From positions 1-32,688 of the IMG/VR virus record IMGVR_UViG_3300036715_002412: DNA of 32,688 bases; one strand, 5' to 3'. Each line of letters begins with the position of its first letter. Position 1 is the stretch's first letter. The notes under the pieces are model-generated. The model saw nothing but the letters and a program-made list of their open reading frames with translations. It was not told the origin of the DNA and ran no database searches. The stretch comes from a virus. Of this stretch, positions 7,384 through 32,548 are shown in pieces. The position numbers and the translations under genes are program-made.

Positions 7384-7454
7384 CAGGATATGAAAGTGTC
7401 GAACTTCCATCTTTAGGGTCAAAGCCTAATGTAATACCGTTATACCAATATCCC
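7384..7454 (-). tRNA. tRNA-Gln (TTG)
   Basis: Cloverleaf readable on the minus strand: acceptor GGGATAT with ATATCCT (one G-U pair), anticodon stem TTAGG/CCTAA, loop CTTTGAC giving anticodon TTG, T-stem GGAAG/CTTTC with loop TTCGACA, discriminator G. The D-stem is weak. It reads CAA, a codon favoured in AT-rich genes. No CCA is encoded. Confidence 0.85.
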
Positions 7455-7569
7455 ATGAATAAACCATGATTGAATTGAATAATACTTTTATTGATTTTGA
7501 ATCAACCACACTTCTAATAAAAAAATTGCTTATGTTGCAGTCTGGAAAAACAAGTGCAATAATCCTGAG

Positions 7570-7641
7570 CGTCCTTATCCAGAATCGAACTGGAATCGTG
7601 ATGTTAGAAGCATCGTATGTTTTCCATTACACTATAAGGAC
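7570..7641 (-). tRNA. tRNA-Arg (TCT)
   Basis: Acceptor GTCCTTA/TAAGGAC is perfect; anticodon loop CTTCTAA gives TCT; T-stem TCCAG/CTGGA with loop TTCGATT; discriminator G. The outer pair of the anticodon stem is a C-A mismatch. It reads AGA, typical of AT-rich phage genes. Confidence 0.88.
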
Positions 7642-7759: not shown

Positions 7760-8845
7760 TCATTTCATCAACAGATAGCTGAAAATATGTTTTATAACAT
7801 CCACTGTCCATCCATTTCCAAGCATTTTATATCTCTGAGAATTTGAAACAATGGATGTGTAATTATCTGGAACAGTTTGCAATCTTTCACACTCCAACGG
7901 GGTCAATTTTCTATAATAAATATCATTCAATGCAATTTTAGGTTCTCTATGCCCACCCTGCATTGTTGTCAAGGATGGACTTTTTCCATTAATGGAATAT
8001 ACCCGTTTTACTATATCGTATCCATTTATGTTTTCAGCCATTCCAACTTGAATCAATCCATTTAATTTATGTGGATGATCTGAGGCGACAAAATTGTGTT
8101 CTCCGTCCTTTTCAATATTTAATTGAGATTCAATATTATCAGCAATAATTTGATTTTTAAGTGTCGCGCCACCACACCCAACAAGACACCCATGAGGAAT
8201 TGTTTTTACATAAATATAGCCCCACTCATGTCTATCTTCGCGACCACTTCCCCTTCCCGAACTTCTTACCGTATTGGATTTCTCCTTAATTAATGAAGAA
8301 TTTTGAATATCAAAATTTTCTAAAATATCTTTTAAAAATATTTTTTTATCTTCTGGCTGTTCAATTCCATGTATATTTGTCCAATATAATCTTTTTCTTG
8401 ATTGTGCGGAGACCAAAGATGAATTAATTTCAATTGGCGTTATTTTCAAATACTCGGAAATTACATCTTGAAATTCTTGTTTCATTTTAACATTTTCAAG
8501 AAGAAATTTTATTTTTGGATTTTTCTTTTTCAAAAAATTCAATATTTCTACATATTCAAAAAATAATTTACTTCGAGGATCATTGAAATTCAATTGTTTT
8601 CCAGCAAAGGAAAATCCCTGACAGGGACTTCCTCCAATCAAAAGATCGATTTTTGGTAAATTCCAAGATTTCCAATTTTGAACATCCCCAAGTTGAATAG
8701 TTTGCGGATAATTTTTTTGGGTAACTTTGATTGCGTATTTATCAATCTCGGACGCAAAATATTTATTTACCTTAATTCCAGCGCGCTCCAAAGCAATTTG
8801 ACCGCAACTCATTCCATCAAACAATGAAAGAATATTTAATTTCAA
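7760..8845 (-). CDS. DNA (cytosine-5) methyltransferase
   Basis: 361 residues with the C5-methyltransferase motifs in order: motif I SLFDGMSCGQIALERAG (SAM binding), motif IV GGSPCQGFSF with catalytic C75, motif VI LLENV (E117-V119), motif VIII QSRKR (148-152), a target-recognition region at about 190-300, then motifs IX-X (LTPLECERLQTVP; MLGNGWTVDVI). It transfers methyl from SAM to carbon 5 of cytosine. Start is a TTG at 8845, with GAGGAG about 10 bases upstream. No restriction endonuclease gene is next to it, so it is an orphan enzyme, probably shielding phage DNA from host restriction. It lies inside the tRNA group. Confidence 0.93.
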   Translation of the reverse strand: MKLNILSLFDGMSCGQIALERAGIKVNKYFASEIDKYAIKVTQKNYPQTIQLGDVQNWKSWNLPKIDLLIGGSPCQGFSFAGKQLNFNDPRSKLFFEYVEILNFLKKKNPKIKFLLENVKMKQEFQDVISEYLKITPIEINSSLVSAQSRKRLYWTNIHGIEQPEDKKIFLKDILENFDIQNSSLIKEKSNTVRSSGRGSGREDRHEWGYIYVKTIPHGCLVGCGGATLKNQIIADNIESQLNIEKDGEHNFVASDHPHKLNGLIQVGMAENINGYDIVKRVYSINGKSPSLTTMQGGHREPKIALNDIYYRKLTPLECERLQTVPDNYTSIVSNSQRYKMLGNGWTVDVIKHIFSYLLMK

Positions 8846-9932: not shown

Positions 9933-9936
9933 TAGG

Positions 9937-10024
9937 TTATCCGAGAAGGAGTCGAACATCCATAAACCTTGTGAGGGCATCCACGTTATAAGCATGGGGC
10001 TCTAACCAGTTGAGCTATCGGATA
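9937..10024 (-). tRNA. tRNA-Ile (TAT) with an unusually long variable arm
   Basis: Acceptor TATCCGA/TCGGATA, D-arm GCTC...GAGC, anticodon stem CCATG/CGTGG with loop CTTATAA giving TAT, T-loop TTCGACT, discriminator A. The variable region is about 19 nt, as in class II tRNAs, with a short CCT/AGG stem, and the T-stem has one mismatch (GGATG against CCTTC). Isoleucine tRNAs normally have 4-5 nt there. It would read AUA. Confidence 0.75.
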
Positions 10025-10118: not shown

Positions 10119-10997
10119 TTATTCCCAAAAACATTGATGCGTGATCGCCTTCTTTTCTTCACTACTCTCGTTATTTTGTTTTATTGGTAGAGGGTAATTA
10201 GAAATAAAAAGTTCATTTCCCTTTTTCGCTTTCCCCTGCTTGTAATTATTCATTCCATATTGCAATTTCCAATTATAGATATTCGCAAATTCAAAATTGT
10301 TTCTAATTTTAGGACAATCATCATAGGTAATTAGCCATAAATGATTGCACTTTTTCATCTCATTTGCAAAATCATTATGGTTAAATCCAGTGTGTAAAAT
10401 GCCATTTTTTCCGTATAACTTTGACTTAGTTGCTTTGAAATAAGGTGGATCAAGAAAAGTAAAGACTTCTTTTCCTCCACTTGATAAGACTTTGTGATAA
10501 TCCAAAAATGTAATCCTGATTCCTTCTAAGAGTTTTCCAAGTTTTGCAACACGTTCAATTGAAGAATCTGTAAACCTTCCAGCAAATGCCAATTGTGAGT
10601 AACCGCCAGATTCAGCTACACCAGAAAAAGTGATTCGATTTAAGACAAAGAAACGAACAGCACGCTCAAATTCAGTTAATGTTTCTGTTTTCACATTTAC
10701 TAATTCATTGAACAATTCCCGTCCATTTGCTCTTTCTATTTTAATTTTCAGAACTTCCTTCGCTAATTTTTCTGAATCAATTTGGGCATACTTCCAGAAG
10801 AAATATAATTCGAGATTTAAGTCATTAATCCAAATTTTCAACTCTGGGAAGACTTGTTTTAAATAAATAAAAAATGACCCTCCGCCGACAAATGGCTCTC
10901 GATATTCCTCAAACTCCTTTGGCAAAAGGGATTTCATTTGCTGTATTGCACGGGATTTTCCGCCAGGGTATCTCAATGGGCTTTTCATAATTTTCAT
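10119..10997 (-). CDS. D12-class (Dam-like) N6-adenine DNA methyltransferase
   Basis: 292 residues. The N-terminal SPLRYPGGKSRAI and EPFVGGGSFF are the SAM-binding motifs X and I of the D12/Dam class, and FLDPPYF (D183-Y186) is the catalytic DPPY motif IV. It methylates adenine N6, usually in GATC-like sites. Start ATG at 10997 with no clear Shine-Dalgarno. The preceding bases ACCTAAC fit the RYYYAAC core of an attC site, so it may mark the border of the cassette-like island just upstream, but one core alone is weak. It is one of five DNA methyltransferases here. Confidence 0.9.
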   Translation of the reverse strand: MKIMKSPLRYPGGKSRAIQQMKSLLPKEFEEYREPFVGGGSFFIYLKQVFPELKIWINDLNLELYFFWKYAQIDSEKLAKEVLKIKIERANGRELFNELVNVKTETLTEFERAVRFFVLNRITFSGVAESGGYSQLAFAGRFTDSSIERVAKLGKLLEGIRITFLDYHKVLSSGGKEVFTFLDPPYFKATKSKLYGKNGILHTGFNHNDFANEMKKCNHLWLITYDDCPKIRNNFEFANIYNWKLQYGMNNYKQGKAKKGNELFISNYPLPIKQNNESSEEKKAITHQCFWE

Positions 10998-11166: not shown

Positions 11167-11463
11167 TTACTTGTCAACTTCAAGTGTGACATGAAAGGCT
11201 GGGAAGAAATCCTTCTGTGGAATTTTTGCTTCTTGTAGAAAACGAGGGATGAATTGCCATTGTCCTCCCGTCACAGTGACATCTAAAATTTTTATGATGT
11301 CGTTTCCAAAAATATCCACAACTTTAACTGCAATCTTCCGCCGTCCCGCGGGGACTTTTATCTGGGCTGGCTGGGATTCGACTTGTGAGCAGAAAAAACC
11401 CGAAGCCAGTGTCTCGACAGGCTCGACAACCAAAAACTGCTTGAAAATGCGGCAGAATCCCAC
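11167..11463 (-). pseudogene. C-terminal fragment resembling an adenine-specific methylase or type III R-M tail
   Basis: The segment GRRKIAVKVVDIFGNDIIK resembles the extreme C-terminus of type III / adenine-specific restriction-modification proteins, but no catalytic part is present. The upstream codons (VVEPVETLASGF) are not part of that protein: they translate a widespread dyad DNA repeat, so the first third of the frame is repeat-derived. There is no ribosome site. Base composition is richer in GC than the phage backbone, and the piece sits at the left end of the cassette-like island. The family match is from memory of motif similarity. Confidence 0.45.
11411..11430. repeat. Dyad repeat of the VVEPVET type
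   Basis: Plus strand GTCTCGACAGGCTCGACAAC contains two CTCGAC/TCGAC units. Read on the minus strand it encodes the VVEPVET peptide seen in many bacterial genomes as a translated extragenic repeat. Its presence marks DNA of likely chromosomal origin. Confidence 0.5.
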
Positions 11464-11487
11464 CAGTCGGCTGCAAGCAGTTATTGG
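11430..11487 (-). repeat. attC-like hairpin after a cassette gene
   Basis: AACTGCTTG (11435-11443) pairs exactly with 11474-11482, flanked by CCAA/TTGG. It lies a few bases after the stop of the short gene ending at 11494. The 7-base cores do not fit RYYYAAC/GTTRRRY well, so it is a degenerate site at best. Confidence 0.35.
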
Positions 11488-11799: not shown

Positions 11800-11927
11800 G
11801 ACCAACGGTTTACGTTAGTGGTTTGCGGGCGGAGTGGCATCCGCTCCACCAACAAGATTAACTTTGGTGCAGATTTACCTTCCGATTCCGCAGACTCCCT
11901 GCAAATCGGCTGCGCGCTTTGTTAGTT
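11800..11927 (-). repeat. attC-like recombination site
   Basis: In gene orientation it opens with ACTAACAAAGCG (R''/L'') and closes with GTAAACCGTTGGTC (L'/R'). ACTAAC can pair with GTTGGT using one G-U pair. Inside, CCGATT pairs with AATCGG and GGAGCGG with CCGCTCC-like sequence. The stop codon of the upstream gene lies in the opening core. About 128 bases long, within the normal attC range. Confidence 0.6.
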
Positions 11928-13569: not shown

Positions 13570-14475
13570 TTATGATTTTGATTTTTTATCAGCAACATTT
13601 AATAAAAAGACATCATTATACATATCTTGACCAACCAATTCCAGAAATTTCAATCGGGATTTTTCAGACTGAATTCCATAGGGACGCATGTGATTTTGAA
13701 TAATCCCACAAATCCAAATTATATCATTCGTGGAAACATTCTTGACATCCAAATAAAACATGGCTTCATACGCTGAAACTGATTCATGAGAATAAAAATG
13801 CGCTATATCGGATGGATTTCCTTTGGAGTCTTCAAAAGTTTTAGTGTATAGTTTTCCAATATCATGAAGTATGGCGGCACGTTCCATTCTTTCGTTTTCA
13901 TAATCCAAAACTTCTCTGTAAACACTGCGTGTATGCTCACCCAGCGTTTTAGAGTGATGGGGATTATCTTGATTGAACGCGTCCATTTTTTTCCACAAAT
14001 CGTTCCAATTATAATTATCGGGATTATAATTATAAACAATATTGATTTCATCCCAGCCTTCATTATATTGTGGCATCTGAAATTGTTTACGATAACGAGA
14101 AATAACATGAAGAGGAACTACCCGTTCACGCATCTCGTTTTGCCTTAGACATTTTTGAAACTCTGTTGCCACAACAATCGCTATTTTTTTCACATATAAT
14201 TTATTTATTTTTTGAAGCAATGCAACACGATATTTTGCTGAAATATTTGTAGAATCTAATATAACGCTTTTACCATTTGCCAACCACGATAAAATATCGG
14301 AATGAATTTTGTCAAAGATTTTTGAATTATCTCCTTGCTTGGATTCGTCACCATATTCTTTTTGACGATGGGTGTCCGAAGATAGGATAATGGCGGGAGT
14401 GCCTTCCGCAATTTGTTTTGCCAAAGTGGATTTACCGCTTCCTTGCAAACCGATCATCATTATAAATTTTACCAT
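13570..14475 (-). CDS. Polynucleotide kinase-HD phosphohydrolase fusion (RNA/DNA end-healing)
   Basis: 301 residues. The N-terminal P-loop kinase domain has GLQGSGKST (9-17) and LDSTNIS (73-79), as in T4-type 5'-OH polynucleotide kinases. The C-terminal part is an HD domain: H181, then H204-D205 in AILHDIGK, H230 and NH in IIQNHMRPYG. HD domains fused to such kinases can remove 2',3'-phosphates; the described Runella HD-Pnk has the HD domain first, whereas here the kinase is first. Together with the RNA ligase upstream it would heal and seal broken tRNA. It begins 3 bases after the ligase C-terminal part. Confidence 0.82.
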   Translation of the reverse strand: MVKFIMMIGLQGSGKSTLAKQIAEGTPAIILSSDTHRQKEYGDESKQGDNSKIFDKIHSDILSWLANGKSVILDSTNISAKYRVALLQKINKLYVKKIAIVVATEFQKCLRQNEMRERVVPLHVISRYRKQFQMPQYNEGWDEINIVYNYNPDNYNWNDLWKKMDAFNQDNPHHSKTLGEHTRSVYREVLDYENERMERAAILHDIGKLYTKTFEDSKGNPSDIAHFYSHESVSAYEAMFYLDVKNVSTNDIIWICGIIQNHMRPYGIQSEKSRLKFLELVGQDMYNDVFLLNVADKKSKS

Positions 14476-14478
14476 TGT

Positions 14479-14892
14479 TTATTCTCCAATCATTTTTAAT
14501 ATACGATCATTTGATTGATTAAAAATCCAGGTTGTAAAACTATCTACTTTCAAATCAGCCATTGAATACATTGCGCTCGGAAATGATGTGGAGTTCGCCC
14601 ATATAGCTAAATCTCTTCTATTATTATAAGATGGAATAGTAGACCAATCCTTCTCCATAACTTCAATCACATTATTTATTTTACGCTCAATATCACTAAA
14701 CATGCCGCGATACTCAGGATAATAAGCCAGAAATTCATCTTTCTCGTTTGTACGAATCATATCCAAAATTCTTGATTTAGTAACAACACCATTATTTCTA
14801 AGATGATGAGCAACAACATACGCCCTGGATTTAATCTTAACCCTATTATAATTAGCATCCACTACGACATACCCTTCTTCATTGAAAGACAT
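14479..14892 (-). CDS. C-terminal part of T4 Rnl1-type RNA ligase (motifs IV-V)
   Basis: 137 residues. EEGYVVVD is nucleotidyltransferase motif IV (E6) and RVKIKS is motif V (K19, K21). The 13- and 15-residue spacing matches T4 Rnl1 E227, K240 and K242. The remainder resembles the helical Rnl1 C-terminal domain. The ATG at 14892 directly follows, in the same frame, the TAA that ends the N-terminal part, so without that stop a 352-residue ligase (T4: 374) would result. No Shine-Dalgarno is seen before this ATG. The two halves may be made separately by reinitiation, or joined by stop readthrough, or the ligase may be inactivated. Confidence 0.8.
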   Translation of the reverse strand: MSFNEEGYVVVDANYNRVKIKSRAYVVAHHLRNNGVVTKSRILDMIRTNEKDEFLAYYPEYRGMFSDIERKINNVIEVMEKDWSTIPSYNNRRDLAIWANSTSFPSAMYSMADLKVDSFTTWIFNQSNDRILKMIGE

Positions 14893-15537
14893 TTAACTTG
14901 TCGCTTCTAAACATTCATCTAAACTTGATAATGCGTATTGTTCTGGCTTCTCGATGCCAATTTCAACATCTAATTCTTCAAGGGTATGATTATCTCTCGT
15001 TCCAATATGATACAACTTTGTCTCTGGATATGCAATTACAACCTTATTATAAATAGATACTAATTTAAAAATATAAGTGTATCCATTATTTAAAACAGTG
15101 TAAAGATGTGATGGAAACACGCTGGTAAATAATTCACCAAAATTATGAAAATTCGAATCCGTCACTGGAAGCTCACAATTAAACGCATCAATTACGCCAT
15201 TGGTGCTAATTCTCCAAGTTCCATTATAAAACCATAACTTCATAATTGAACCATCAATTTTTTGTTGAACCTTTGCACTTTTCCAATCAATAGAGTCGGC
15301 ATTTTTTTCTTGAACATTAAAGAATTTGAAAAAGGGAACGCACACAAGCACAAAATGCTTATCAAAAATAATTCCACGACATTCACGCACAAGGGGGATT
15401 GAAAAATCGCTGAAAAGTTGATTGTAAGAAAACAAATAGAAATCACCATCTTTTTTTATATCAATATAATATGGGGCATTGGAAAGTTTTTCTTTCCAGT
15501 CCAAATTTTCTTGAATGAATTTCTGTAATTTCAACAT
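14893..15537 (-). CDS. N-terminal part of T4 Rnl1-type RNA ligase (motifs I-III), ends at in-frame TAA
   Basis: 214 residues. Motif I is QQKIDGSIMKLW with the AMP-accepting lysine K93 (T4: K99); VRECRGIIFD precedes it as in Rnl1, and TYIFKLVSIYNKVV is the motif IIIa/III region. It lacks motifs IV and V, which are needed to bind ATP and seal, and these lie immediately downstream in the same frame. The junction reads GAA GCG ACA AGT TAA ATG TCT TTC. Rnl1 repairs tRNAs cut by host anticodon nucleases, and the tRNA genes and end-healing enzyme nearby fit that role. Confidence 0.85.
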   Translation of the reverse strand: MLKLQKFIQENLDWKEKLSNAPYYIDIKKDGDFYLFSYNQLFSDFSIPLVRECRGIIFDKHFVLVCVPFFKFFNVQEKNADSIDWKSAKVQQKIDGSIMKLWFYNGTWRISTNGVIDAFNCELPVTDSNFHNFGELFTSVFPSHLYTVLNNGYTYIFKLVSIYNKVVIAYPETKLYHIGTRDNHTLEELDVEIGIEKPEQYALSSLDECLEATS

Positions 15538-15598
15538 GTTGTTTTCTCCTGCTTGAAAAATTGTTTCTTGAAAATTGTGGCATAAGAATACTTATATA

Positions 15599-15799
15599 TC
15601 AAATAATTTTGTTCACATCTTGTCTCAACTCATATTTATCATCTGTTTGATTATATTGAATCAATTTTTCCTTATTCAATTTCGTCAAAGACTTTGCAAC
15701 CGCTTTTTCGGTTATACCAAATTTTTTTGACAATTCTTTTTTAGATTGTCCTCCATCTCGAAGATGGAGCAGGATGGCTAAGTAAGTATGAAAAGCCAT
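15599..15799 (-). CDS. Winged-helix DNA-binding protein
   Basis: 66 residues, almost all one winged helix-turn-helix: LLHLRDGGQSKKELSKKFG (helices 1-2) then ITEKAVAKSLTKLNKEKLI (recognition helix and wing). Probably a small transcription regulator for nearby genes. Its start overlaps the stop of the upstream gene by one base, so the two are translationally coupled. No autoregulatory operator could be identified in the 60-base gap to the ligase gene. Confidence 0.7.
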   Translation of the reverse strand: MAFHTYLAILLHLRDGGQSKKELSKKFGITEKAVAKSLTKLNKEKLIQYNQTDDKYELRQDVNKII

Positions 15800-15990
15800 T
15801 ATTTCCCAATCCCTCTTTTATAGTCCTCTTCAAGTTTAAATGATATTTCCTTAATACGAAGGGCAACGAGATTTAATTGTTGAACAATGTATAAATTATC
15901 TTTTTCGGAATTCTTTTTTGCCCATTCCTCAAAAAATTTTATAATTACTTTCAGTGATTTATTGCTCAATTCATTCTCTCTTATTTTCAT
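15799..15990 (-). CDS. Small coiled-coil protein
   Basis: 63 residues, almost wholly helical with heptad-like leucines and isoleucines (SLKVIIKFFEEWAKK; LVALRIKEISFKLEEDYKRG). Not recognised. It overlaps the winged-helix gene by one base and may act with it. Start ATG at 15990, with GGATTCGTGAA as a weak ribosome site. Confidence 0.6.
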   Translation of the reverse strand: MKIRENELSNKSLKVIIKFFEEWAKKNSEKDNLYIVQQLNLVALRIKEISFKLEEDYKRGIGK

Positions 15991-16034
15991 TTCACGAATC
16001 CTTTCATCTAGTCATAAAACACTTATTTCATAGT

Positions 16035-16865
16035 CTAATAATTCTTATAAAGACTTTCAAAAACATATTCGGAATTGGAACTTCCAACAATTCTTCTAAA
16101 TGGAGAATTTCCAGAAGCTAAATAAACATGATTATTATATAATTTCTGGGGAACATCATAAGTCATATCACTCGTTGCAGTCCTTCCATTAAAAGAAAGA
16201 AGATATTTTCCACTTTGTTTTTCTAACCATCCCCACATTTTTTCATAATCAATTGCACCATAATACATTCCTTTTGTTCCGGTATAGGGTGGATCAAGAT
16301 ATAGAACATCATTTTCTTTTGATTGTATTTTTTCATATGAAATATTTTCAAAGACCACATTGTTTTTATTCAATAATTCACTCCAAATTTTTAATATTTT
16401 TTTTAATTTATCAGGAAGAATTCCATTTCTTTTCACATGAAAAGCAGTATTAAAATTTCCATTTTTATTATATCTTGGCATTCCATTTACAGCTGTTCTC
16501 ATTATAAACATAAAATCGATTGGATTTCTTTCTAAATTAAATCTATCTCTAATAGAAAAATAATATTTTCTTTTTCTTTCTATGTCGTCATCTTTATTCA
16601 AATCCATCCACAATTTTTCATATCCACTACTTATTTCTAAAGGAGAGCTTTTTATTTTTTTCCAAAGACTAATCAAATCATTATTCAAATCTGAAATCAT
16701 AAAATTTTTTACTTTTATATTAGAAACCATTAATTGAAACAAAACTGAACACCCTCCACAAAAGGGTTCATAGTATGTATCAATTTCTTTCGGAAAAAGA
16801 GCGATTATCCTTTTCGCCTGACTCCGCTTGCTTCCAGACCATTTAATAGCAGGTTGTATAATCAA
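16035..16865 (-). CDS. Second D12-class N6-adenine DNA methyltransferase
   Basis: 276 residues. AIKWSGSKRSQ and EPFCGGCSVLF are motifs X and I; LYLDPPYTG (D191-Y194) is the catalytic DPPY. The residue before GSK is Ser rather than the usual Gly/Pro-Gly pair (KWSGSK), and the target region differs from that of the other D12 enzyme, so the two probably recognise different sites. Start ATG at 16865 preceded by AAAGGAG. About 170 bases of AT-rich, gene-free DNA lie upstream. It is the first gene of the run towards the RNA-repair genes. Confidence 0.9.
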   Translation of the reverse strand: MIIQPAIKWSGSKRSQAKRIIALFPKEIDTYYEPFCGGCSVLFQLMVSNIKVKNFMISDLNNDLISLWKKIKSSPLEISSGYEKLWMDLNKDDDIERKRKYYFSIRDRFNLERNPIDFMFIMRTAVNGMPRYNKNGNFNTAFHVKRNGILPDKLKKILKIWSELLNKNNVVFENISYEKIQSKENDVLYLDPPYTGTKGMYYGAIDYEKMWGWLEKQSGKYLLSFNGRTATSDMTYDVPQKLYNNHVYLASGNSPFRRIVGSSNSEYVFESLYKNY

Positions 16866-17576: not shown

Positions 17577-18413
17577 TTATTTTTCCTCCGCCGTCAAATA
17601 ATCATAGACTTCATTCCGTGCATGAATATATTTTTCACCAATTGCCAAATTACTATGACCGGCAATAAATTTTACCGCATACGGGTCTTTCGTTTTTTCG
17701 TAAATACCCGTTAGAGTATAATGACGAAAAGCGTGTCCATGACCAAATCTGGTAATTTGATCTGCTGTAAATCCAGTGGATTTTACAAAACGATTTATGC
17801 GAAGATATACAGCCGTGCCACTAATAGCATGTCCACCCCAAGAAAACAGATATTCAGACTTCTCATGACGCATTTGGGACACGTCTGCAATCATATCCAA
17901 AATATCTTGAGGAAGTTTAATTGAACGTTCTTTATTACCCTTCCCATGCACAAGCAATCGTCCATCAGAAATATCGGACAATTTAATATTTGCCATTTCG
18001 CTTGAACGCAAACCAATTCTTCCCAAAATGTTGATCATCAAAAAAAGTTTCTTGTTCCCCCTTGATTTTTCAAGAATATCTTGCATTTCTGATTCAGTTG
18101 GCATTCGTATCATTTTTTTGGCGGTGGACAGATATTCAATCTTATCAAAAATATTTGATTGAATATATTCTTGCTGATACAGCCAGCTAAAAAATGAAGA
18201 AATAATACGAGTTATGGTATTCTTGCTTGAATTTGTAATTTTTAAACTATTTCGATATTCACGAAATTGAATGGCCGTAACCGCCTTCAAGTCTTCAATA
18301 GAATTGATATTCAATGCCGAAAGAAAAGCATCAATTACACTTCGATATGACCGAAGGGTAAGATGACTTTTATCGTTTTTCGCATTCAAGAATTGCTCGT
18401 ATTCATTGAACAT
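17577..18413 (-). CDS. Tyrosine recombinase (XerC/D-like phage integrase)
   Basis: 278 residues. The N-terminal SAM-like core-binding domain (about 1-95) is followed by the catalytic domain with R136 in GLRSSEMANI, K158 in VHGKGNKER, H227 and R230 in HGHAFRHYTLT, H253 in AGHSN and nucleophile Y262 in EKYIHAR: a complete set. It is about 40 residues shorter than integron integrases and lacks an evident IntI insert, so it should not recombine attC sites. Likely roles are phage integration or resolution of genome multimers. No attachment core could be recognised. Start ATG at 18413 with AAAGGA, about 25 bases after a consensus promoter. Confidence 0.9.
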   Translation of the reverse strand: MFNEYEQFLNAKNDKSHLTLRSYRSVIDAFLSALNINSIEDLKAVTAIQFREYRNSLKITNSSKNTITRIISSFFSWLYQQEYIQSNIFDKIEYLSTAKKMIRMPTESEMQDILEKSRGNKKLFLMINILGRIGLRSSEMANIKLSDISDGRLLVHGKGNKERSIKLPQDILDMIADVSQMRHEKSEYLFSWGGHAISGTAVYLRINRFVKSTGFTADQITRFGHGHAFRHYTLTGIYEKTKDPYAVKFIAGHSNLAIGEKYIHARNEVYDYLTAEEK

Positions 18414-19578: not shown

Positions 19579-20637
19579 CTACTTTCCGTCCATGTGATTT
19601 ACAATTACATTCAAAGCCTTTTTCATTGTGTTGGCACGATTCCCAATAAACACAGACGATGTATCGTCTTTTTTACTTAAACGTTCATGATTTTCTATCT
19701 GTGTAAATACATTCCAAAGACCCCACATATCAGGCGTAATTGCAATTCCACGAGAGGAATTGTTGAAAAGCTCATATGCCAAATTTCGGTCACGTTCCGC
19801 AATTTCATTTTTCTTGGCAAGAGCTTCAGCATTACGTTCAATAATTTTCTTGGGAGCATCTTTTGCCTCGGAAAATTCATAAACAGATTCAACAATTGAT
19901 TTTAAAACATTCTCCGAATCAACTGGAATTGATTTCATCCGATTGAACAGATTGGAAATTAATTCAGCTTGCCTATCTGCCTTCTGGTCAATATGGCTCA
20001 TCCATTCACCCAAATCATTGAGGATATACGGAGAATTATGCTTGCCATTCCAAACTAAGCCCTCGTCAGTCCCATCGCTTTTTTTGTGCTTTGTTTGATT
20101 CACAACCATTTGAAACGTATTTGAACACACAGTGCGAATTCCAGAAATGGCAAGCGTAATGGACATTTTTCCATCAAAACCACCAAGAATTGTTCCAAAC
20201 AATGTAACCTTGTCGTCTTTGCCAACAATTACATCCCCCTTCTTCAATTGCCAAGTTACGAACATGCGTTCACCATGATTTAAAAATCCCATTGTTTCAA
20301 CTGGCTTCTTCACTTTTTCATCAAATTTCTTTGCAATGTCCTCAGCTTGCACAAGATGATAACTATCCGTACACCAACCAATCGGAATATACTTATCATC
20401 TGTTTTGGTGGGGAGGCGATAAATACGAAAATCGCCAGTCTCGTGCATCTCCCCATCGGGAGATTTTGCAAAATCTTTCCATAATTCAAAAATGGGAACT
20501 CCATCGTGACCGTCAAACATATTCAATGTTTCCATCGCCGTTTGATCGATTTCATTCCGATACCCCAATGAATGCCATGCCGCACCAGAACGCTTTACGT
20601 CGACATAAATATTTTTACCTTGAGCATTTACCGACAT
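19579..20637 (-). CDS. DUF932 phage/plasmid-related protein
   Basis: 352 residues. The opening (WHSLGYRNEIDQTA), the middle GWCTDSYHLVQAEDIAKKFDE and the core TILGGFDGKMSITLAISGIRTVCSNT match the DUF932 family (TIGR03299), found in phages and plasmids near replication genes. Biochemical role unknown; an association with recombination or anti-restriction is sometimes proposed. It is transcribed alone: a consensus promoter lies 42 bases upstream, a terminator precedes that promoter, and another hairpin follows the stop. AAAAGGAGAATAAA is a strong ribosome site. The isolated, well-promoted unit suggests high expression. Confidence 0.82.
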   Translation of the reverse strand: MSVNAQGKNIYVDVKRSGAAWHSLGYRNEIDQTAMETLNMFDGHDGVPIFELWKDFAKSPDGEMHETGDFRIYRLPTKTDDKYIPIGWCTDSYHLVQAEDIAKKFDEKVKKPVETMGFLNHGERMFVTWQLKKGDVIVGKDDKVTLFGTILGGFDGKMSITLAISGIRTVCSNTFQMVVNQTKHKKSDGTDEGLVWNGKHNSPYILNDLGEWMSHIDQKADRQAELISNLFNRMKSIPVDSENVLKSIVESVYEFSEAKDAPKKIIERNAEALAKKNEIAERDRNLAYELFNNSSRGIAITPDMWGLWNVFTQIENHERLSKKDDTSSVFIGNRANTMKKALNVIVNHMDGK

Positions 20638-20678
20638 TTTATTCTCCTTTTGAATTTTATTTTCTTTTATCTTTCATC

Positions 20679-20707
20679 ATTATAAAACAAATAATTCTTT
20701 TTGTCAA
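20679..20707 (-). promoter_or_regulatory. Consensus sigma-70 promoter for DUF932
   Basis: TTGACA, 17 bases, TATAAT on the minus strand. Confidence 0.87.
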
Positions 20708-20719
20708 TAGGCAAAATAA

Positions 20720-20755
20720 AAACCTGTATTCGCATCATAGATGAAATACAGGTTT
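20720..20755 (-). terminator. Intrinsic terminator upstream of the DUF932 promoter
   Basis: AAACCTGTATT pairs with AATACAGGTTT (11 pairs), followed on the minus strand by TTTATTTT. It ends the operon read from 21495. Confidence 0.82.
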
Positions 20756-20777
20756 CATGAACGATTGTTCTATTTAG

Positions 20778-20903
20778 TTATACATAAACATCCCAATTTC
20801 CAATATGACAAATTGAACATAAATAACGTTCCGCTCTTTTGTTCAACTTTTCATAAAATTCAAATTCCGTTTCACATTCACAATGAAAACAATAATGTTT
20901 CAT
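20778..20903 (-). CDS. 41-residue zinc-ribbon-like protein
   Basis: The product begins MKHYCFHCECETEF and has a second pair in YLCSICHIGNW, giving C5, C8, C10, C29 and C32, a compact CxxC-CxxC zinc-ribbon pattern. GGAGATGGC stands before the ATG. It ends 22 bases before a terminator. Small zinc proteins of this type in phages often modulate host enzymes, but no family is recognised. A similar pattern occurs, interrupted by a stop, at 28297-28413. Confidence 0.6.
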   Translation of the reverse strand: MKHYCFHCECETEFEFYEKLNKRAERYLCSICHIGNWDVYV

Positions 20904-20927
20904 GCCATCTCCAAAATTGATTTCAAA

Positions 20928-21131
20928 CTAAAAACGAATGGTCACATCATAAGAATTTCTACATTGTTGACATTTACGAATTTCAACAATATAGCCATCT
21001 TTTTCCAAAAAATTTAACTTTATATCTACGACAATCTCCCAAACAAGATTGAAGTCCCACCAATAATGCTGGCCTTTTTGTTTAAGATGCGATATCTCGT
21101 TTTGGATTTTTAGAATTGATGAACTTGTCAT
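20928..21131 (-). CDS. Small unknown protein with C-terminal CxxC
   Basis: 67 residues. Helical N-terminus, Trp-rich centre (YWWDFNLVWEIVV) and C54-x2-C57 (RKCQQCRNSYDVTI) near the end. One CxxC alone could bind zinc only in a dimer or with a partner. It lies between two other small genes of one operon and has no clear homologue known to me. Confidence 0.55.
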   Translation of the reverse strand: MTSSSILKIQNEISHLKQKGQHYWWDFNLVWEIVVDIKLNFLEKDGYIVEIRKCQQCRNSYDVTIRF

Positions 21132-21147
21132 TGTCTATTATTTAATA

Positions 21148-21495
21148 TCAACGTTTCGCACGTTTCATCATGCGATCATATAACTGACGACCATAAAGTT
21201 TCTTCACCACATTGAGAGCAAAGCCAATGTTCTCATCAAAAACATCTCCCTCATGACAACGAACCTGGGTTTTATCGCCGTCGGCCCAAATAACTGTTGT
21301 CACTGGATTTGAAAATATAATTTGTTTAACATGAGGAATAGTGTTGATAGGAATGCGAAGACATGAATTAGTATGGTAGGGAGGCTGGGAATTTGTTTCG
21401 CAACCTAAACCTATTAGATTGCTTGTAATATAAATAGATTCATCAAGAATAGATTTGTCAAGCTGAATAGAATTATTTTTTTTAGATGTATTCAT
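21148..21495 (-). CDS. Conserved small phage protein
   Basis: 115 residues. The block NPVTTVIWADGDKTQVRCHEGD, then VFDENIGFALNVVKKLYG, resembles a very widespread tailed-phage protein whose usual form is 'I.FNPPATIVFWKDGTKT.V'. Its function is unknown. The N-terminal 45 residues are polar and probably flexible. It is the first gene of a three-gene operon ended by the terminator at 20720-20755; the start is ATG at 21495, with no strong Shine-Dalgarno. Confidence 0.7.
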   Translation of the reverse strand: MNTSKKNNSIQLDKSILDESIYITSNLIGLGCETNSQPPYHTNSCLRIPINTIPHVKQIIFSNPVTTVIWADGDKTQVRCHEGDVFDENIGFALNVVKKLYGRQLYDRMMKRAKR

Positions 21496-24900: not shown

Positions 24901-25515
24901 TCACTCTATTTTTTTATATCCTGCATCATGGATATATTTTGTATAATCTCTTTTATATGCCTTTCTTTTTATCACATCATCGGAAGGAAAGTCGTAAAAA
25001 TGTTTTAATAAATGCTTCAAGTGAACATTCTTCCCGCCCATCCTATTTCCAAAATTCATCTCGCCCGATATGAAATCAGCCGTAGTATGCAATGAATCGG
25101 CTAAAACCAAACCCAAATACATTGCCGAGAATTCAACATACAATGGATCAATAAAATAATGCCTAAAAACAACTATAAAAGGAAATCCAAAATACATCAA
25201 CCGAATGAATGTTGAAACAAAATAACTATGACTGAGAAATCCACGATGCCCACCAAAACGCTGTATTGCTCTTGCATAAAATGTAGACATTACCAATAAG
25301 GGAATAAGGATGACTGATTTTATCCAAAATGCCTCATCATCATTGATTCCTATTAAGTCTAAATCATTTGTAATGCCTAAAAAATGTAATCCATATCCCA
25401 CCAGGAAAAATAAACCAAAATACCACCATCCTTCAATTGCAAAAAGCAACGCGATAATCACTGCAAATGGAATGAACGATTTCCAAATTTTTCTATGAGT
25501 TTTGCCATCAGGCAG
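24901..25515 (-). CDS. DUF2227-type metal-binding membrane protein
   Basis: About 204 residues. GKTHRKI at the start, GHRGFLSHSYFVSTFIRLMYF in the middle and LADSLHTTADFI near the end are the His-rich motifs of DUF2227, a predicted metal-binding membrane family of unknown function. Several hydrophobic segments flank them. Family members start M-x-x-GKTH; the matching codon here is CTG at 25515, placed seven bases after AAAGGTGGTG, which complements 16S rRNA very well. The alternative GTG at 25527 would overlap that ribosome site. First gene of the operon that runs to 22083. Confidence 0.72.
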   Translation of the reverse strand: MPDGKTHRKIWKSFIPFAVIIALLFAIEGWWYFGLFFLVGYGLHFLGITNDLDLIGINDDEAFWIKSVILIPLLVMSTFYARAIQRFGGHRGFLSHSYFVSTFIRLMYFGFPFIVVFRHYFIDPLYVEFSAMYLGLVLADSLHTTADFISGEMNFGNRMGGKNVHLKHLLKHFYDFPSDDVIKRKAYKRDYTKYIHDAGYKKIE

Positions 25516-25628: not shown

Positions 25629-25724
25629 GGGCGCAATTTGATTTTACTGATTTTGTCTCTGGCATCAACCATCTTCAATCTCGTAAATTCCAAAAGATAG
25701 AAATCACTCTTTCCCATCACTTGT

Positions 25725-26480
25725 TTACTGCACGCTTTTGTTAGAATGAGTAAGGGACTTAAGCCTTAAAACCGCCGATTGATTAGAATCACAGCCAATG
25801 CAAGACCTGCCTAACTCATGTGCTACTTTCAGAAATGAGCCACTGTCACAAAAGAAGTCTGCAACAATATCATTTTCATTCGATGAAGCCAGTACAATCC
25901 TTTTCATAATCTCACTTGGTTTCTGTGTGGCGTATCCGTTACGCTCTTTTGACATTGTATTGAAGGTCATTTCCCAAACATCGGACGGGATGCGTCCTGC
26001 TGGAATTGGACTTCCTTTTTGAGAACCATGCAGATATCTCCATTCTGTCATTTTACTCTTGTAGGGAATAAATACAGGATTGAAGGTGTATTTTTCTGAC
26101 TTTGAATAAAACAAAATTGTATCGTGCTTTCTGGCAAAGCGTGTTTTTCCACGCCCGCCCATATCGTGATGCCAGATTATTTCATTCACAAAGTTATCAT
26201 AACCAAAAATTTTATCCATTTCAACTTTCACATAGTGAACGGCGTGCCAATCAAGGTGTACATAAATACTACCTGTTGGCTTTAGAAGCCTGTGCATTTC
26301 CTTCAACCGCTCAATCATAAAATCAAGGTAGTGTTGCATTGATTTCCAGCGGTCATCAAAATTTCCATAATCACGCTGTGAGAAGTAAGGCGGGTCAATG
26401 TATATTAGGTCAATTGTTTCGCTCGGCAATTCTCGCATGATTACGAGATTATCGCCTTCGTAGATTATAAAGGTACTCAT
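25725..26480 (-). CDS. Beta-class site-specific DNA methyltransferase (N6-A or N4-C), cassette-borne
   Basis: 251 residues. Motif IV is IDPPYFSQRDYGN (D29-Y32), followed by the target region, then TQKPSEIMKRIVLASS (motif X) and DIVADFFCDSGSFLKVAHE (motif I, with Asp-Ser where Gly is usual). Motif IV before X/I marks the beta class, as in type III Mod and many orphan enzymes. The last codons (SNKSVQ) are encoded by an attC-like core, TTCTAACAAAAGCGTGCAG. It starts 10 bases after the GTTGGGAC core of the previous site and has no clear Shine-Dalgarno, as in many integron cassettes. Confidence 0.88.
   Translation of the reverse strand: MSTFIIYEGDNLVIMRELPSETIDLIYIDPPYFSQRDYGNFDDRWKSMQHYLDFMIERLKEMHRLLKPTGSIYVHLDWHAVHYVKVEMDKIFGYDNFVNEIIWHHDMGGRGKTRFARKHDTILFYSKSEKYTFNPVFIPYKSKMTEWRYLHGSQKGSPIPAGRIPSDVWEMTFNTMSKERNGYATQKPSEIMKRIVLASSNENDIVADFFCDSGSFLKVAHELGRSCIGCDSNQSAVLRLKSLTHSNKSVQ
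25728..25746 (-). repeat. attC half site at the left end of the second island
   Basis: Gene-orientation TTCTAACAAAAGCGTGCAG matches the opening arm of the other sites here (CTAACAAAGCGTGCAG), but no closing core is found before the promoter at 25628. It probably marks the array boundary after a deletion. Confidence 0.5.
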
Positions 26481-26489
26481 TTTTCAGAA

Positions 26490-26523
26490 GTCCCAACGGT
26501 TTACCCCACCTGTTTTGTTGGAC
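26490..26523 (-). repeat. Very short attC-like site between two methyltransferase genes
   Basis: GTCCAAC (fits RYYYAAC) to GTTGGGAC, 34 bases, with AAACC before the closing core as in other sites. Arms pair with one bulged G. It is shorter than known functional attC sites, so it may be a deleted relic. Confidence 0.45.
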
Positions 26524-27298
26524 ATCGCTCTAATTGCACCAAACGCTCGTTTGTTAAAGCCACATGTTCAGCGGATATATCAATGCCGATATAATGACGG
26601 TTGAGAAGTTTGGCCATTTTCGGGGTAGTGCCCGACCCGCAAAAACAATCAAGGACGGTATCGCCTTCGTTTGACCAAGATAAAATATGATCTTGCGCTA
26701 ATGCTTCGGGAAATGTGGCGGGATGTTGAAACGCTATTTTATCTGTTGAGCCTACCATCCAACCACCGCGAATATCCCAAACATTAGTACGCTTTGAGTG
26801 AGTGTTGCCATTTGCCATAAACTCTTTTGTCTTCCCGTTTTTCTTTCTCATGGATGATTTACCAGTTTTTATATATTTATTTTCACGGTCTTTCAAAAGA
26901 TTTATTGACTTCGGCTTTCCTTTGCTAAAAACGAACATATATTCAAAAGCCTGTGTATAGCAATAATTAGAACCCTTCGTTCCGCCTTGTGCGCCCTTAT
27001 TGTAAATCATAGTATCGTGGAGATTGAAGCCACATTGCATAAAATAGAGTGCTTGACGGAAAGAAGTGCCGCTCTCCGTTCCCTTTTTTGTTTCATCAGT
27101 TACAACCCACACCACCACACCGCCCGCCTTTGTGACCCGATACAACTCGCTGGTAATGGTTTTAAAATCGAAAACAAAGCCTTTATAGTCTCTCATGCTA
27201 TCATAGGGTGGAGACGTGATAGTAAGGTCTATGCAATCGGGTGGAAAGGATTGTAAAACTACTGCGCTATCACCTGAGATTATTTTATCAAGTTCCAT
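26501..27298 (-). CDS. Beta-class DNA methyltransferase (TSPPY type), cassette-borne
   Basis: 265 residues from ATG at 27298 (MELDKIISGDS). Motif IV is ITSPPYDSMRDY (T28-Y32), typical of N4-cytosine and some N6-adenine enzymes; motif X/I lies at the end (QHPATFPEALAQDHILSW; DTVLDCFCGSGTTPKMA; RHYIGIDIS). The C-terminal codons (CPTKQVG) are written by the GTCCAAC core of the next attC-like site. A longer frame upstream to 27430 would translate the previous gene's tail and is unlikely. No obvious Shine-Dalgarno. It differs from the neighbour in motif IV, so the two likely modify different sites. Confidence 0.88.
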   Translation of the reverse strand: MELDKIISGDSAVVLQSFPPDCIDLTITSPPYDSMRDYKGFVFDFKTITSELYRVTKAGGVVVWVVTDETKKGTESGTSFRQALYFMQCGFNLHDTMIYNKGAQGGTKGSNYCYTQAFEYMFVFSKGKPKSINLLKDRENKYIKTGKSSMRKKNGKTKEFMANGNTHSKRTNVWDIRGGWMVGSTDKIAFQHPATFPEALAQDHILSWSNEGDTVLDCFCGSGTTPKMAKLLNRHYIGIDISAEHVALTNERLVQLERCPTKQVG

Positions 27299-27317
27299 AA
27301 TGTTATTCAAAATTACT

Positions 27318-27536
27318 TCAATCTTCAAACTCGTTGCCCTTGTCGCTTGCACGCTTTGTTGGACAACTGAGTGCGAAAGCAAAGAACCCAAGAGCAATAA
27401 CCGAAACAATTGAAAAATAAAGCCAATCACCAGCAGACCACATAAACATATTTTCTGTCAATTTTGCAGCGATGTTTCGAGACACATTGTAAAAAGATGA
27501 GCCGATTGCCAATATGAAAGCCTTACCGTATTCCAT
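27318..27536 (-). CDS. Small single-span membrane protein, cassette gene
   Basis: 72 residues, one strong hydrophobic segment near the C-terminal third (WLYFSIVSVIALGFFAFAL). The tail CPTKRASDKG is encoded by GTCCAACAAAGCGTGCAAG, an attC opening core (27346-27364), as in other cassettes here. AGAAAGGAATCGTAA precedes the ATG at 27536, which lies 28 bases after the GTTGGGC core of the upstream site. No family recognised. No closing core is seen between this gene and the methyltransferase, so that attC is truncated. Confidence 0.62.
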   Translation of the reverse strand: MEYGKAFILAIGSSFYNVSRNIAAKLTENMFMWSAGDWLYFSIVSVIALGFFAFALSCPTKRASDKGNEFED

Positions 27537-27563
27537 TTACGATTCCTTTCTGTTGGGCATTCC

Positions 27564-27658
27564 GCCCAACGGCTCTCATGTCAGTTGCAAGAACCACTAA
27601 CCTTTTTGATTTTCACGGCTCGAATGCCGACTCTTATCTACCGCGCGCGGCGTTAGAC
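27564..27658 (-). repeat. attC site with both consensus cores
   Basis: In gene orientation it runs from GTCTAAC (RYYYAAC) to GTTGGGC (GTTRRRY), 95 bases. The cores pair using G-U pairs, and an internal CGGC/GCCG stem with loop ATTCGA is present. It is the best-matching site of the window. A further GCCCAAC lies 5 bases beyond the closing core. Confidence 0.75.
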
Positions 27659-27836
27659 CCACACAACACAAAAGGGCGTGAGCCATGCCGCACGACTCGC
27701 ACGGGCGATTAGGATTGTTGGCGGATGTATCATCGCCATAACAACCACACGCGGGAAGCATACAATCGGCGTAGGGCGTAACAAGCCAGGTTTTATGACA
27801 GATAGGGCATGTGCTTTGACCAGCATTTAATGACAT
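27597..27836 (-). CDS. Cys-rich zinc-finger-like protein, cassette gene
   Basis: 79 residues with nine cysteines: C10-x2-C13 (TCPICH), C25, C30, C32, C46-x2-C49 (PCESCG), C57 and C58, enough for two zinc sites. The last 20 residues (LTPRAVDKSRHS...) are translated from the attC site, so the functional protein ends near CCVG. AAGGAGTTTCGCA stands before the ATG at 27836. Family unknown; similar small Cys-rich proteins are frequent in environmental cassette arrays. Confidence 0.62.
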   Translation of the reverse strand: MSLNAGQSTCPICHKTWLVTPYADCMLPACGCYGDDTSANNPNRPCESCGMAHALLCCVGLTPRAVDKSRHSSRENQKG

Positions 27837-27865
27837 TGCGAAACTCCTTATCTTGCAAGATGGGG

Positions 27866-27956
27866 GGATAACGATTTGCTTCAGTGGCGTGCAACGGATA
27901 GCGCTTGTCCAAAAATTACCTACGCTCGTCCATATCGGGTGAACGCATTGTTAGCC
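27866..27956 (-). repeat. attC site with paired arms and an unpaired base
   Basis: GGCTAAC to GTTATCC, 91 bases. TAACAATGC-TTCA of the left arm pairs with TGAAGCAAATCGTTA of the right, leaving a bulged G in TGC(G)TTCA, the kind of extrahelical base that orients integrase binding in folded attC sites. Confidence 0.68.
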
Positions 27957-28135
27957 CGCGCTATTGCTTCCATGAGATTTCCGGCAGAAACGGAAATGCC
28001 GTCTCCATTCAGCGCGTAATCTGTACCAATATAGTTTTTTGATTCATCATAATTATCATAATCATCAACTTTCACACCGTATTTATTAAACAATTCGCCT
28101 AGCTCAACCAAAAACTTAATTTGCTTCTCACTCAT
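27920..28135 (-). CDS. Small acidic protein, cassette gene
   Basis: 71 residues. A helical opening (EKQIKFLVELGELFNKYGVK) leads to a Tyr/Asp/Asn-rich middle and NGDGISVSAGNLMEAIARAN. The final codons (ANNAFTRYGRA) cross the GGCTAAC core. AAAGGAG lies 10 bases before the ATG at 28135. Not recognised. Its start overlaps the end of a 21-codon leader ORF. Confidence 0.62.
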   Translation of the reverse strand: MSEKQIKFLVELGELFNKYGVKVDDYDNYDESKNYIGTDYALNGDGISVSAGNLMEAIARANNAFTRYGRA

Positions 28136-28193
28136 GTTTGCAATACTCCTTTGCTATAAGATATTTGTACGTTGAAATCATTTTGTTTTGCAT
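28128..28193 (-). CDS. 21-codon leader ORF
   Basis: ATG with TTAGGAGCTACT in front; the product starts MQNKMISTYKYLIAKEYCK. It contains the next gene's ribosome site and ends 8 bases inside that gene, so ribosomes finishing it could start the next gene by coupling. A core-like GTTAGGA (28200-28206) lies just before it. It may be a real leader or a chance ORF. Confidence 0.4.
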   Translation of the reverse strand: MQNKMISTYKYLIAKEYCKHE

Positions 28194-28296
28194 AGTAGCT
28201 CCTAACTATATTTTGAGCGGTGAAATCACAGCTTAAACACCCAATTAATCTTGCTCATCACTCAGCAACCGCGCAATGTTCTGTAACATTGACGTT

Positions 28297-28413
28297 TTAC
28301 TGGTTGATTTTTGCAACATCAAAACCGCAAATAGCACAACGTAAGGCACGCATAATTCTATCTATTCGCGCTTCCCATGTCTAATAGCAATTATTACAAA
28401 AAACTTTTGGCAT
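28297..28413 (-). pseudogene. Zinc-ribbon-like small gene broken by an in-frame TAG
   Basis: MPKVFCNNCY, then TAG, then in the same frame TWEARIDRIMRALRCAICGF and a short end to TAA. Read through, it is a 38-residue CxxC ... CxxC protein laid out like the intact one at 20778-20903 (RAERYLCSIC against MRALRCAIC). It is the first reading frame after a strong promoter. Nonsense mutation is the simple explanation; readthrough is possible. Confidence 0.45.
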
Positions 28414-28468
28414 ATTTACCGTTCTTATTCCAAATATTTTTTCTCTGCATCAATCTTACTTGCAATCT

Positions 28469-28497
28469 ATTATAAACTCTAAACCTTTAAAAGTCAA
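28469..28497 (-). promoter_or_regulatory. Sigma-70 promoter at the head of the second cassette island
   Basis: TTGACT, 17 bases, TATAAT on the minus strand. It lies between the endolysin stop and the first cassette-like gene and should transcribe the array leftwards, like the Pc promoter of integrons. Confidence 0.75.
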
Positions 28498-28601
28498 TAT
28501 GACAAATATCACTCATTTTCAATATAAATATCATTAATCATTTTTTTAATCATTTTTTCCCGTTTATTAAAGTTACACAATGCCGCTGGAAATTTTTCGC
28601 A

Positions 28602-31479: not shown

Positions 31480-31618
31480 ATCCAACAAGTTGCTTTGCTG
31501 GCTGGTGGGCGATGAAAGTATCCGCTTTAGGAGCAATAAAGTCTTCGAGTGTAGATTGACTCGATGGGGGAGGAAGAATTCTAGCCCGCCACACGTCAAT
31601 CTGCACGCTTTGTTAGCC
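31480..31618 (-). repeat. attC site
   Basis: GGCTAACAAAGCGTGCAG opens and CTTGTTGGAT closes (GTTGGAT fits GTTRRRY). Length 139 bases. AGATTGAC pairs with GTCAATCT and GGCGGGC with GCCCACC inside. The stop of the upstream gene is in the opening core; the next ATG follows after 22 bases. Confidence 0.7.
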
Positions 31619-31899: not shown

Positions 31900-31987
31900 G
31901 TCTAATGGTTTGCGTTAGTGACTTGCGCCGCCAACTACTTTACTTTTAAGCACGACGAGTGCAAGTACGCTGCGCGCTTCATTGTTT
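31900..31987 (-). repeat. attC-like site, degenerate cores
   Basis: Opens AAACAATGAAGCGCGCAG and closes CGCAAACCATTAGAC. ACTTGC pairs with GCAAGT inside. The closing core has ATTAG for GTTAG and the opening one ACAATG for CTAAC, so it may no longer recombine. Confidence 0.5.
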
Positions 31988-32455: not shown

Positions 32456-32548
32456 AAATTAAAGGTTTATGTTGGGCGCGTGGAACGAACGGCTCGAATT
32501 TCAAATAACGTTGGTCACACCACACGTCAACTGCACGCTGTGTTAACC
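32456..32548 (-). repeat. attC-like site
   Basis: Opens GGTTAACACAGCGTGCAG and shares TTGACGTGTGG with the site at 31480; closes ACATAAACCTTTAATT with a degraded core. The stop of the upstream gene lies in the opening core. Confidence 0.55.

Follow-up and report, generated by a model that had tools for sequence, protein, structure and literature searches.

Gene cassettes of the integron type have already been described in bacteriophages. According to the accessible part of Qi et al. 2023 (PMC9892861), 17 clusters of attC sites lacking integron integrases (CALINs) are found in phages, including Tetrasphaera phage TJE1, Pseudoalteromonas phage PH101 and others, with methyltransferase cassettes such as N6_N4_Mtase. 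Five of the six phage attC sites tested in that work were active with IntI1, P12002L_attC1 being the failure. The window analysed here, the whole 32,688-base IMG/VR virus record IMGVR_UViG_3300036715_002412, contains at 25725-28500 an island of five minus-strand genes that very probably represents a worn phage-borne CALIN. Its five cassettes, of the Anaerolineae type, would form part of a set of 13 attC matches on one strand of a circular phage of 105 kb without IntI; their entry would be the work of a host IntI in trans, with decay of the sites later. The two methyltransferases would most likely serve against restriction, and in many related phages attC loops appear to encode protein tails as well. 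The initial annotation had considered phage-borne cassette arrays little described, a view that gives way to the arrays with methyltransferase cassettes in Qi et al. (2023), as far as the available text of that paper goes.

Integron integrases are known in Chloroflexi (PMC2426708, available part), and the attC models of Ghaly et al. 2021 (PMC8352920) cover 11 taxa, Chloroflexi not being included in the accessible text. Among the matches listed in open-licence PubMed Central literature, only a sul4 paper dealt with Anaerolineae integrons and, by title and start of abstract, none beyond Qi et al. concerned viral integrons from metagenomes. It has also been reported that attC hairpins hinder ribosomes and that a short open reading frame (ORF) in attC can relieve this blocking (Jacquier et al. 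2009, as relayed in the available part of the review PMC8876359).

Cassette genes and attC sites of the island

The window belongs to a larger genome. A second record, IMGVR_UViG_3300035180_001847 (here G001; 105,455 bases), covers window positions 1-32555 at 99.8-100% identity in a match that crosses G001's own ends, and these ends share a 127-base repeat, giving a closed circle of about 105.3 kb. In the island, as noted initially, consecutive minus-strand genes end in cores: all five (Table 1) end in or at an R''-type attC core, namely GGCTAAC, GTCTAAC, GTCCAAC, GTCCAAC and TTCTAAC in transcription order. Three small proteins without a confident family match are followed by two PF01555 methyltransferases. 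In beta-class DNA methyltransferases S/DPPY precedes an FxGxG-like motif, and this order is read in both proteins (DPPY...DSGS and SPPY...GSGT). The best NCBIfam model for the cassette 5 enzyme is PRK11524 (adenine-specific), below its cut-off, and the cassette 4 ORF spans 26501-27430 with a probable ATG at 27298.

Sites were scored over the whole window, with filters off, by a covariance model (here R1) built from an alignment of 30 complete sites (26 viral and 4 bacterial) to which this phage contributed none. The core pattern YAACAAAGCGYGCAGYYGAY had been found in 23 stretches of viral contigs and in 48 stretches across one genome per species (84,980 species), 27 of the 48 bearing Chloroflexi or Anaerolineae-type titles; a second pattern, for the 3' arm, was found in 65 viral stretches. 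The R1 alignment contains 114 double-changed cells compared with 41 +/- 6 in shuffles (covariation score 0.411 versus 0.138), and its R''L''...L'R' hairpin is paired in 88.7% of cells versus 28-38% when slid. In a class 2-like array, R1 matches the textbook aadA1 attC at 21.3 bits (expectation value, E, 0.0012) and dfrA1 weakly (14.6 bits, E 0.09), with no match to the third attC; in phage TJE1 two sites score 19.1 and 18.2 bits (both E<0.01), while one more reaches just E 0.5. Because R1 matches both the aadA1 attC and the TJE1 sites, the family can be taken as attC by cross-detection. A permissive palindrome finder, dropped from the analysis, returned 127 and 101 hits on two reversed sequences used as controls.

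The covariance-model check suggested in the initial annotation gave significant attC on the minus strand of the island at 27866-27956 and 26491-26523. The first of these was one of two sites picked out by eye and was recovered at exactly those coordinates, whereas the other, 27564-27658, fell short of significance; its outer boxes do pair (7 of 7, G-T allowed), but the case for paired arms is weak overall, since attC 1, 2 and 4 fold no better than shuffles. In all, R1 recovers two island sites out of five, along with four more elsewhere in the window. attC 1 retains all four boxes with a fold z of 0.22, compared with -2.56 for the window's best-scoring site and -4.15 for its relative in viral contig L181 (14081-14170; blast 90.8% over 76 bp), in which the stem is intact. 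attC 3 has an exact core match in the 105-kb record. attC 4 keeps both R boxes without the L boxes and loop; nucleotide similarity of this region to two viral contigs (L003 and L004) stops just past R'', and there the relatives of the cassette 4 methyltransferase, 63-65% identical, are followed by a full attC. Judged by sequence, attC 4 looks like an internal deletion of a full site. Together, the R1 scores, the stem contrast with L181 and the comparison of attC 4 with the full sites of L003 and L004 argue for an array that is real and worn, so that the original idea of a cassette array is retained but as part of a phage-wide attC set, and not as an intact one.

Several features assign the island to the CALINs. 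There are at least two nearby attC by covariance model (attC 1 and attC 4), as there are in the segment 31480-32548 with three attC at E<=0.011. Five genes are accompanied by five sites or remnants, all in minus orientation, three of the remnants not being significant alone. Finally, the element has no integron integrase, the best TIGR02249 score in G001 being 35 bits against a cut-off of 265. A complete integron is not present in G001 by the same measure (attI was not sought).

The first 100,000 bases of G001 contain 13 R1 matches at E<0.05 (best E 4e-12), every one of them on the minus strand; they lie at 1.7 kb, in the stretch 16.4-30.2 kb and at 87.8-88.5 kb. The last 5,455 bases of G001 were scanned via the overlapping window. 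Within the remnant at window 11363-11478, 46 bases (11433-11478) share 95.7% identity with the 5' half of an attC from a Chloroflexi metagenome-assembled genome (MAG; locus L072). These figures bear on the idea that the sites are look-alikes, either chance palindromes or phage terminators. Two island sites at E 0.5, one at E 5 and the poor folding of many sites would fit it, but matches reaching E 4e-12 on a single strand of the same phage would not, nor would the nine of nine viral records reached by methyltransferase alone (G026-G034) that have no R1 match, nor the 153 regex sites in the loci versus 0 reversed, although these loci share sequence with one another and the majority had been retrieved with the core pattern. 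Such an origin is scarcely credible.

Table 1. Features of the window (positions in the window; R1 scores with expectation values, E; z, fold compared with shuffles)
Feature	Position	Strand	Description
Cassette 1 gene	27920-28135	minus	71 residues, no family match; C-terminal end ARANNAFTRYGRA, then stop, enters attC
Cassette 2 gene	27597-27836	minus	79 residues, cysteine-rich, no family match; enters attC as LTPRAVDK
Cassette 3 gene	27318-27536	minus	72 residues; weak sub-cut-off Ion_trans_2 match; ends CPTKRASDKGNEFED, then stop
Cassette 4 gene	26501-27298	minus	Beta-class DNA methyltransferase, PF01555 3.2e-44, SPPY motif
Cassette 5 gene	25725-26480	minus	Beta-class DNA methyltransferase, PF01555 2.8e-51, DPPY motif
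attC 1	27866-27956	minus	20.4 bits, E 0.0013; R'' GGCTAAC, L'' GCGTTCA, L' TGAAGC, R' GTTATCC; worn
attC 2, degenerate	27564-27658	minus	11.1 bits, E 0.5, not significant; R'' GTCTAAC, R' GTTGGGC
attC 3, degenerate	27253-27364	minus	11.1 bits, E 0.5; 5' half GTCCAACAAAGCGTGCA intact, 3' half unrecognisable
attC 4, internally shortened	26491-26523	minus	20.6 bits, E 0.0011; 33 bases, R boxes only
attC 5, 5' half only	25728-25746	minus	TTCTAACAAAAGCGTGCAG; 7.5 bits at 25674-25746, E 5.1
attC, best score in window	11800-11927	minus	40 bits, E 4.2e-9; z -2.56; after 65-residue ORF stopping in R''
attC remnant	11363-11478	minus	Coordinates transferred from G001 1260-1375
attC, weak	31480-31618	minus	17.0 bits, E 0.011
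attC	31900-31987	minus	35.6 bits, E 7.5e-8; z 0.19
attC at window end	32457-32548	minus	22.3 bits, E 0.00038; in duplicated segment
Leader	28164-28252		About 90 bases, GTGATTTCAC hairpin and GTTAGGA
Sak4-like annealing protein	4993-6063		
XerA-like tyrosine recombinase	17577-18413		TIGR02249 41.6 bits, cut-off 265
Further DNA methyltransferase gene	7760-8845		No attC found at ends
Further DNA methyltransferase gene	10119-10997		No attC found at ends
Further DNA methyltransferase gene	16035-16865		No attC found at ends
tRNA genes	7383-7641 and 9935-10024		Three: Gln, Arg, one called Ile with anticodon TAT

A leader precedes a first cassette gene both here and at G001 88074-88163; the two copies, distant in the phage, are 93% identical. 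It is possibly an attI-like element or an old attC edge. With the three further methyltransferase genes of the window added to the two of the island, no fewer than five lie within 32 kb of this phage. An Rfam search of the window returned three transfer RNAs (tRNAs) only.

The phage, its host and the entry of the cassettes

G001 encodes terminase, portal, tape measure, DNA polymerase and exonuclease V, and the window additionally encodes DnaB, primase and a Sak4-like annealing protein. Packaging and tail genes (terminase, portal and tape measure) in a genome closed by the 127-base end repeat identify a phage, and the initial proposal of a CALIN array with two beta-class methyltransferases inside a genuine phage is supported by R1, PF01555, these phage genes and the end repeats. 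A distant relative (G038), with 19 shared protein matches at 28-59% identity, carries attC sites too. An assembly chimera joining phage to Anaerolineae chromosome might be suspected from the G+C content around the island, which is 0.36-0.46 in 600-base windows versus 0.345 in the whole window. However, the island has the same sequence and borders in G001, and because G001 closes as a circle the worry is unsupported; even allowing that the two near-identical records may share raw data, an artificial join is most improbable.

The two records differ in just two places: changes cluster in the 14-16 kb bin, and about 1 kb is deleted near 32.5 kb. In the aligned stretch 10104-32555, 48 columns differ, 28 of them in the 14000-16000 bin and 20 in the 32-kb bin, the remainder being identical. 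Because 28 of the 48 lie in window 14000-16000, local recombination with another strain is suggested. Cassette excision was considered as the cause of the difference at 32.5 kb and rejected: base-by-base comparison shows homologous recombination within a 338-base repeat, between two copies, rather than an attC crossover.

This rearrangement lends some weight to ordinary phage mosaicism as the assembler of the island genes, with the attC remnants as passengers or as short homologies for the Sak4-like recombinase encoded in the window. Dissimilar genes preceding similar attC loops (see below) would fit this too. Against it, relatives of the cassette 4 methyltransferase are followed by intact attC and 13 of 13 sites at E<0.05 share one strand, which leaves mosaicism as an unlikely, though the strongest, alternative. 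More doubtful still is an array that is intact and mobile today, with a host IntI moving the five cassettes in and out of the phage. Cores end all five genes, attC 1 is a significant site, and other viral contigs hold related attC and a related methyltransferase cassette, but lost L boxes, a missing loop, half sites, folding not above shuffles and an island that is the same in two records speak against it.

If the island is a worn CALIN, its cassettes would most likely have entered via host IntI in trans, on folded attC bottom strands, and the sites would later have decayed through point changes and an internal deletion. Because of this decay, the five genes may now be mostly fixed phage genes. 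Judging from family and context, the two beta-class methyltransferases would most likely methylate phage DNA against host restriction.

At E<=1e-6, R1 matches 33 of 120 genomes in the class of Anaerolinea thermolimosa versus 1 of 68 in the phylum of a Hydrogenedentota MAG, the one being the MAG used to reach that phylum. After exclusion of 15 of the 48 bacterial pattern loci as likely chance, R1 matches 32 of the 33 scanned at E<=0.001. The attC pattern led, via 25 of the 48 loci chosen by hand, to 22 bacterial genomes, of which 10 encode IntI above cut-off, and R1 sites were found in three of the eight loci scanned around bacterial IntI. By sequence comparison, the attC type of the phage is that of Anaerolineae and, given the 33 of 120 versus 1 of 68 together with the pattern-locus and IntI results, its host probably lies in this class. 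The phage itself lacks IntI, as noted initially: the tyrosine recombinase at 17577-18413 is XerA-like, below the integron-integrase cut-off, and its six PDB matches at E<=1e-5 include XerA and XerD, IntI4 not being among them.

Several observations weigh against a worn CALIN filled by a host integrase. Three of the five island sites are not significant alone under R1, and none of the three folded on the bottom strand is better than shuffled DNA (z 0.22, -0.05 and 0.10 for attC 1, 2 and 4). Among seven further phage sites folded, a clear gain over shuffles is seen only for 11800-11927 and G001 25011-25103 (z -2.34), the other five giving z of 0.19, -0.72, 2.11, -1.41 and -0.26; because folding is poor elsewhere in the phage too, many of its sites may be inactive. 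No integron integrase above the TIGR02249 cut-off is present in G001, recombination at attC is not seen between the records, in which the island is unchanged, and their rearrangement near 32.5 kb is homologous. Finally, 0 of 396 Anaerolineae genomes matched the portal protein in a search without a positive control, and the host is not proven.

Apparently coding attC loops in related viral contigs

R1 matches occur in 23 of the 34 viral records searched whole, and 78 viral loci gave 302 matches at E<=0.001. The weakest rows were for the most part left out, as were some others and loci that nearly duplicate each other, and 245 non-redundant viral sites were retained; those less than 150 bases from a locus end were counted as without ORF, in the phage and bacterial sets alike. 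One clear ORF enters 191 of the 245 sites and stops in R'' (27), at the L' TAA (111), inside (42) or beyond (11). Scoring was restricted to the loop to remove the effect of the constant arms. For the 152 viral sites with a gene entering the loop, the gene's own frame is open in 120, compared with 142 of 304 for the other two frames, and loop stops number 35 in the own frame versus 136 per other frame (p 2e-11); when a single site was taken at random from each locus, p ranged from 0.03 to 5e-5 over five draws. A first count (own frame open in 122/164, other frames in 96/328), in which stops in the constant arms were uncorrected, was replaced.

The residues encoded in these loops are also distinctive. 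CxxC motifs are found in 39 of 152 own frames versus 14 of 304 other frames (p 3e-10), and a pair of CxxC separated by 8 residues or more is present in 13 own frames of the 152 versus 1 of 304 others (p 4e-6). When 10 of the 13 proteins with two-CxxC tails were compared with Pfam, zinc-ribbon families covered the tail in five, all below cut-offs, four had no match and one had a weak non-zinc match. A Dam-like methyltransferase cassette (L194 5642-6163; PF05869, below cut-off) is followed by an attC that encodes a zinc-ribbon-like tail. Across the wider phage set, the attC loop commonly appears to supply the C-terminal end of the cassette protein as well, some 15 to 40 residues long.

Taken by itself, the window's phage would have left this effect unseen, because the own frame is open in just 3 of 10 sites: among 12 G001 sites given, a clear ORF enters 10 and stops in R'' (3), inside (4), at L' (2) or beyond (1). 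Its tail at G001 87840-87964 is nonetheless rich in cysteine. Of three annotated genes that lie at R1 sites in the isolated phage TJE1, two extend about 10 to 12 codons into the site. Among 98 non-redundant sites of bacterial loci, 16 genes enter the loop, with the own frame open in 12 of 16 and the others in 18 of 32 (not significant), and CxxC counts of 2/16 versus 0/32. The share of R'' stops does differ, at 13 of 32 in bacteria versus 27 of 191 in phages (p 0.0009). As only 16 bacterial genes enter the loop, the contrast between phages and bacteria lies in how often genes enter, and is not a tested difference between loops.

Similar loops are found behind different genes. Among the 191 viral sites there are 55 pairs of similar loops, not mutually independent, and the upstream proteins are dissimilar in 52 of them and similar in 3 (99% random-pair threshold). 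Of 16 independent pairs chosen for their similarity as nucleotide sequence, 14 have the same reading frame (p 1e-5), and where the frame at R'' differs the tail frame still agrees in four of five pairs. Differences in the nucleotide-chosen pairs fall on codon positions one to three as 49, 43 and 70 (p 0.01), a modest third-position excess from few pairs. A synonymous-change test on peptide-chosen pairs (positions 92, 76, 147; 57 synonymous and 130 non-synonymous codons) was biased and was replaced. Our reading is that attC bodies may be passed between genes with the tail frame kept; cleavage at R'', or phage recombinases annealing the conserved arms, could be the mechanism.

To our knowledge, the mechanism by which new gene cassettes are made is unsettled. 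The balance tips somewhat towards attC in phages with Anaerolineae-type cassettes being both a folded recombination site and an in-frame C-terminal tail, whether zinc ribbon, membrane-like, basic or acidic. This module would have become attached to numerous genes of no common descent, and such phages would then offer a view of new cassette making. If coding attC holds, a DNA hairpin selected for folding would simultaneously be selected as protein sequence; the way in which arrays are translated would be predicted, and a testable path of cassette birth, from attC body plus new gene, would be available. No report of attC loops coding for protein tails was among the matches listed in the open-licence literature named above, and the frequent reading of cassette genes through attC in related phages looks new.

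Comparison with known integrons and phage CALINs

Two related viral records show the same attC type together with an integrase. IntI above the family cut-off is present in two of the 34 viral records, G053 (36.7 kb, closed; gene at 20361-21350, equivalent to L123 361-1350) and G035 (41.5 kb, not closed; gene at 40398-41375), both from IMG/VR. The G053 IntI aligns nearly full length to IntI4 (2A3V; E 1.6e-83) and an attC lies about 150 bases beyond its gene on the same strand. Among the records fetched whole, G053 (127-base repeat), G036 (115) and G045 (101) are closed by end repeats, unlike G052, G035 and G038. Genes for terminase, portal or head are present in G053, G036, G045 and G052, and G035 has 19 protein matches to G053. 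These two records have IntI with attC (attI was not sought), whereas the window's phage has attC without IntI. The chromosomal integrons of Anaerolineae (Chloroflexota) also share the attC type, with IntI in 10 of the 22 pattern-reached genomes, but a clear ORF enters only 32 of their 98 sites, 13 stopping in R'', compared with 191 of 245 and 27 in the phages.

As in the short ORFs of Jacquier et al. 2009 (PMC8876359, available part), translation would proceed through the attC hairpin. There, a separate ORF follows re-initiation, whereas here the cassette gene continues in frame and some loops encode domain-like tails. The phage CALINs of Qi et al. (PMC9892861) resemble the present array in having attC clusters without IntI and methyltransferase cassettes, and R1 matches two TJE1 sites. 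Compared with the accessible account of these CALINs, the window's phage has Anaerolineae-type attC, 13 spread matches, a worn interval and many relatives among uncultivated phages; the loops that appear to encode protein tails in that wider set are not mentioned in the same text. The window's phage points to a little-described phage group whose cassettes are of the same type as those of Anaerolineae integrons and probably supply it with anti-restriction genes.

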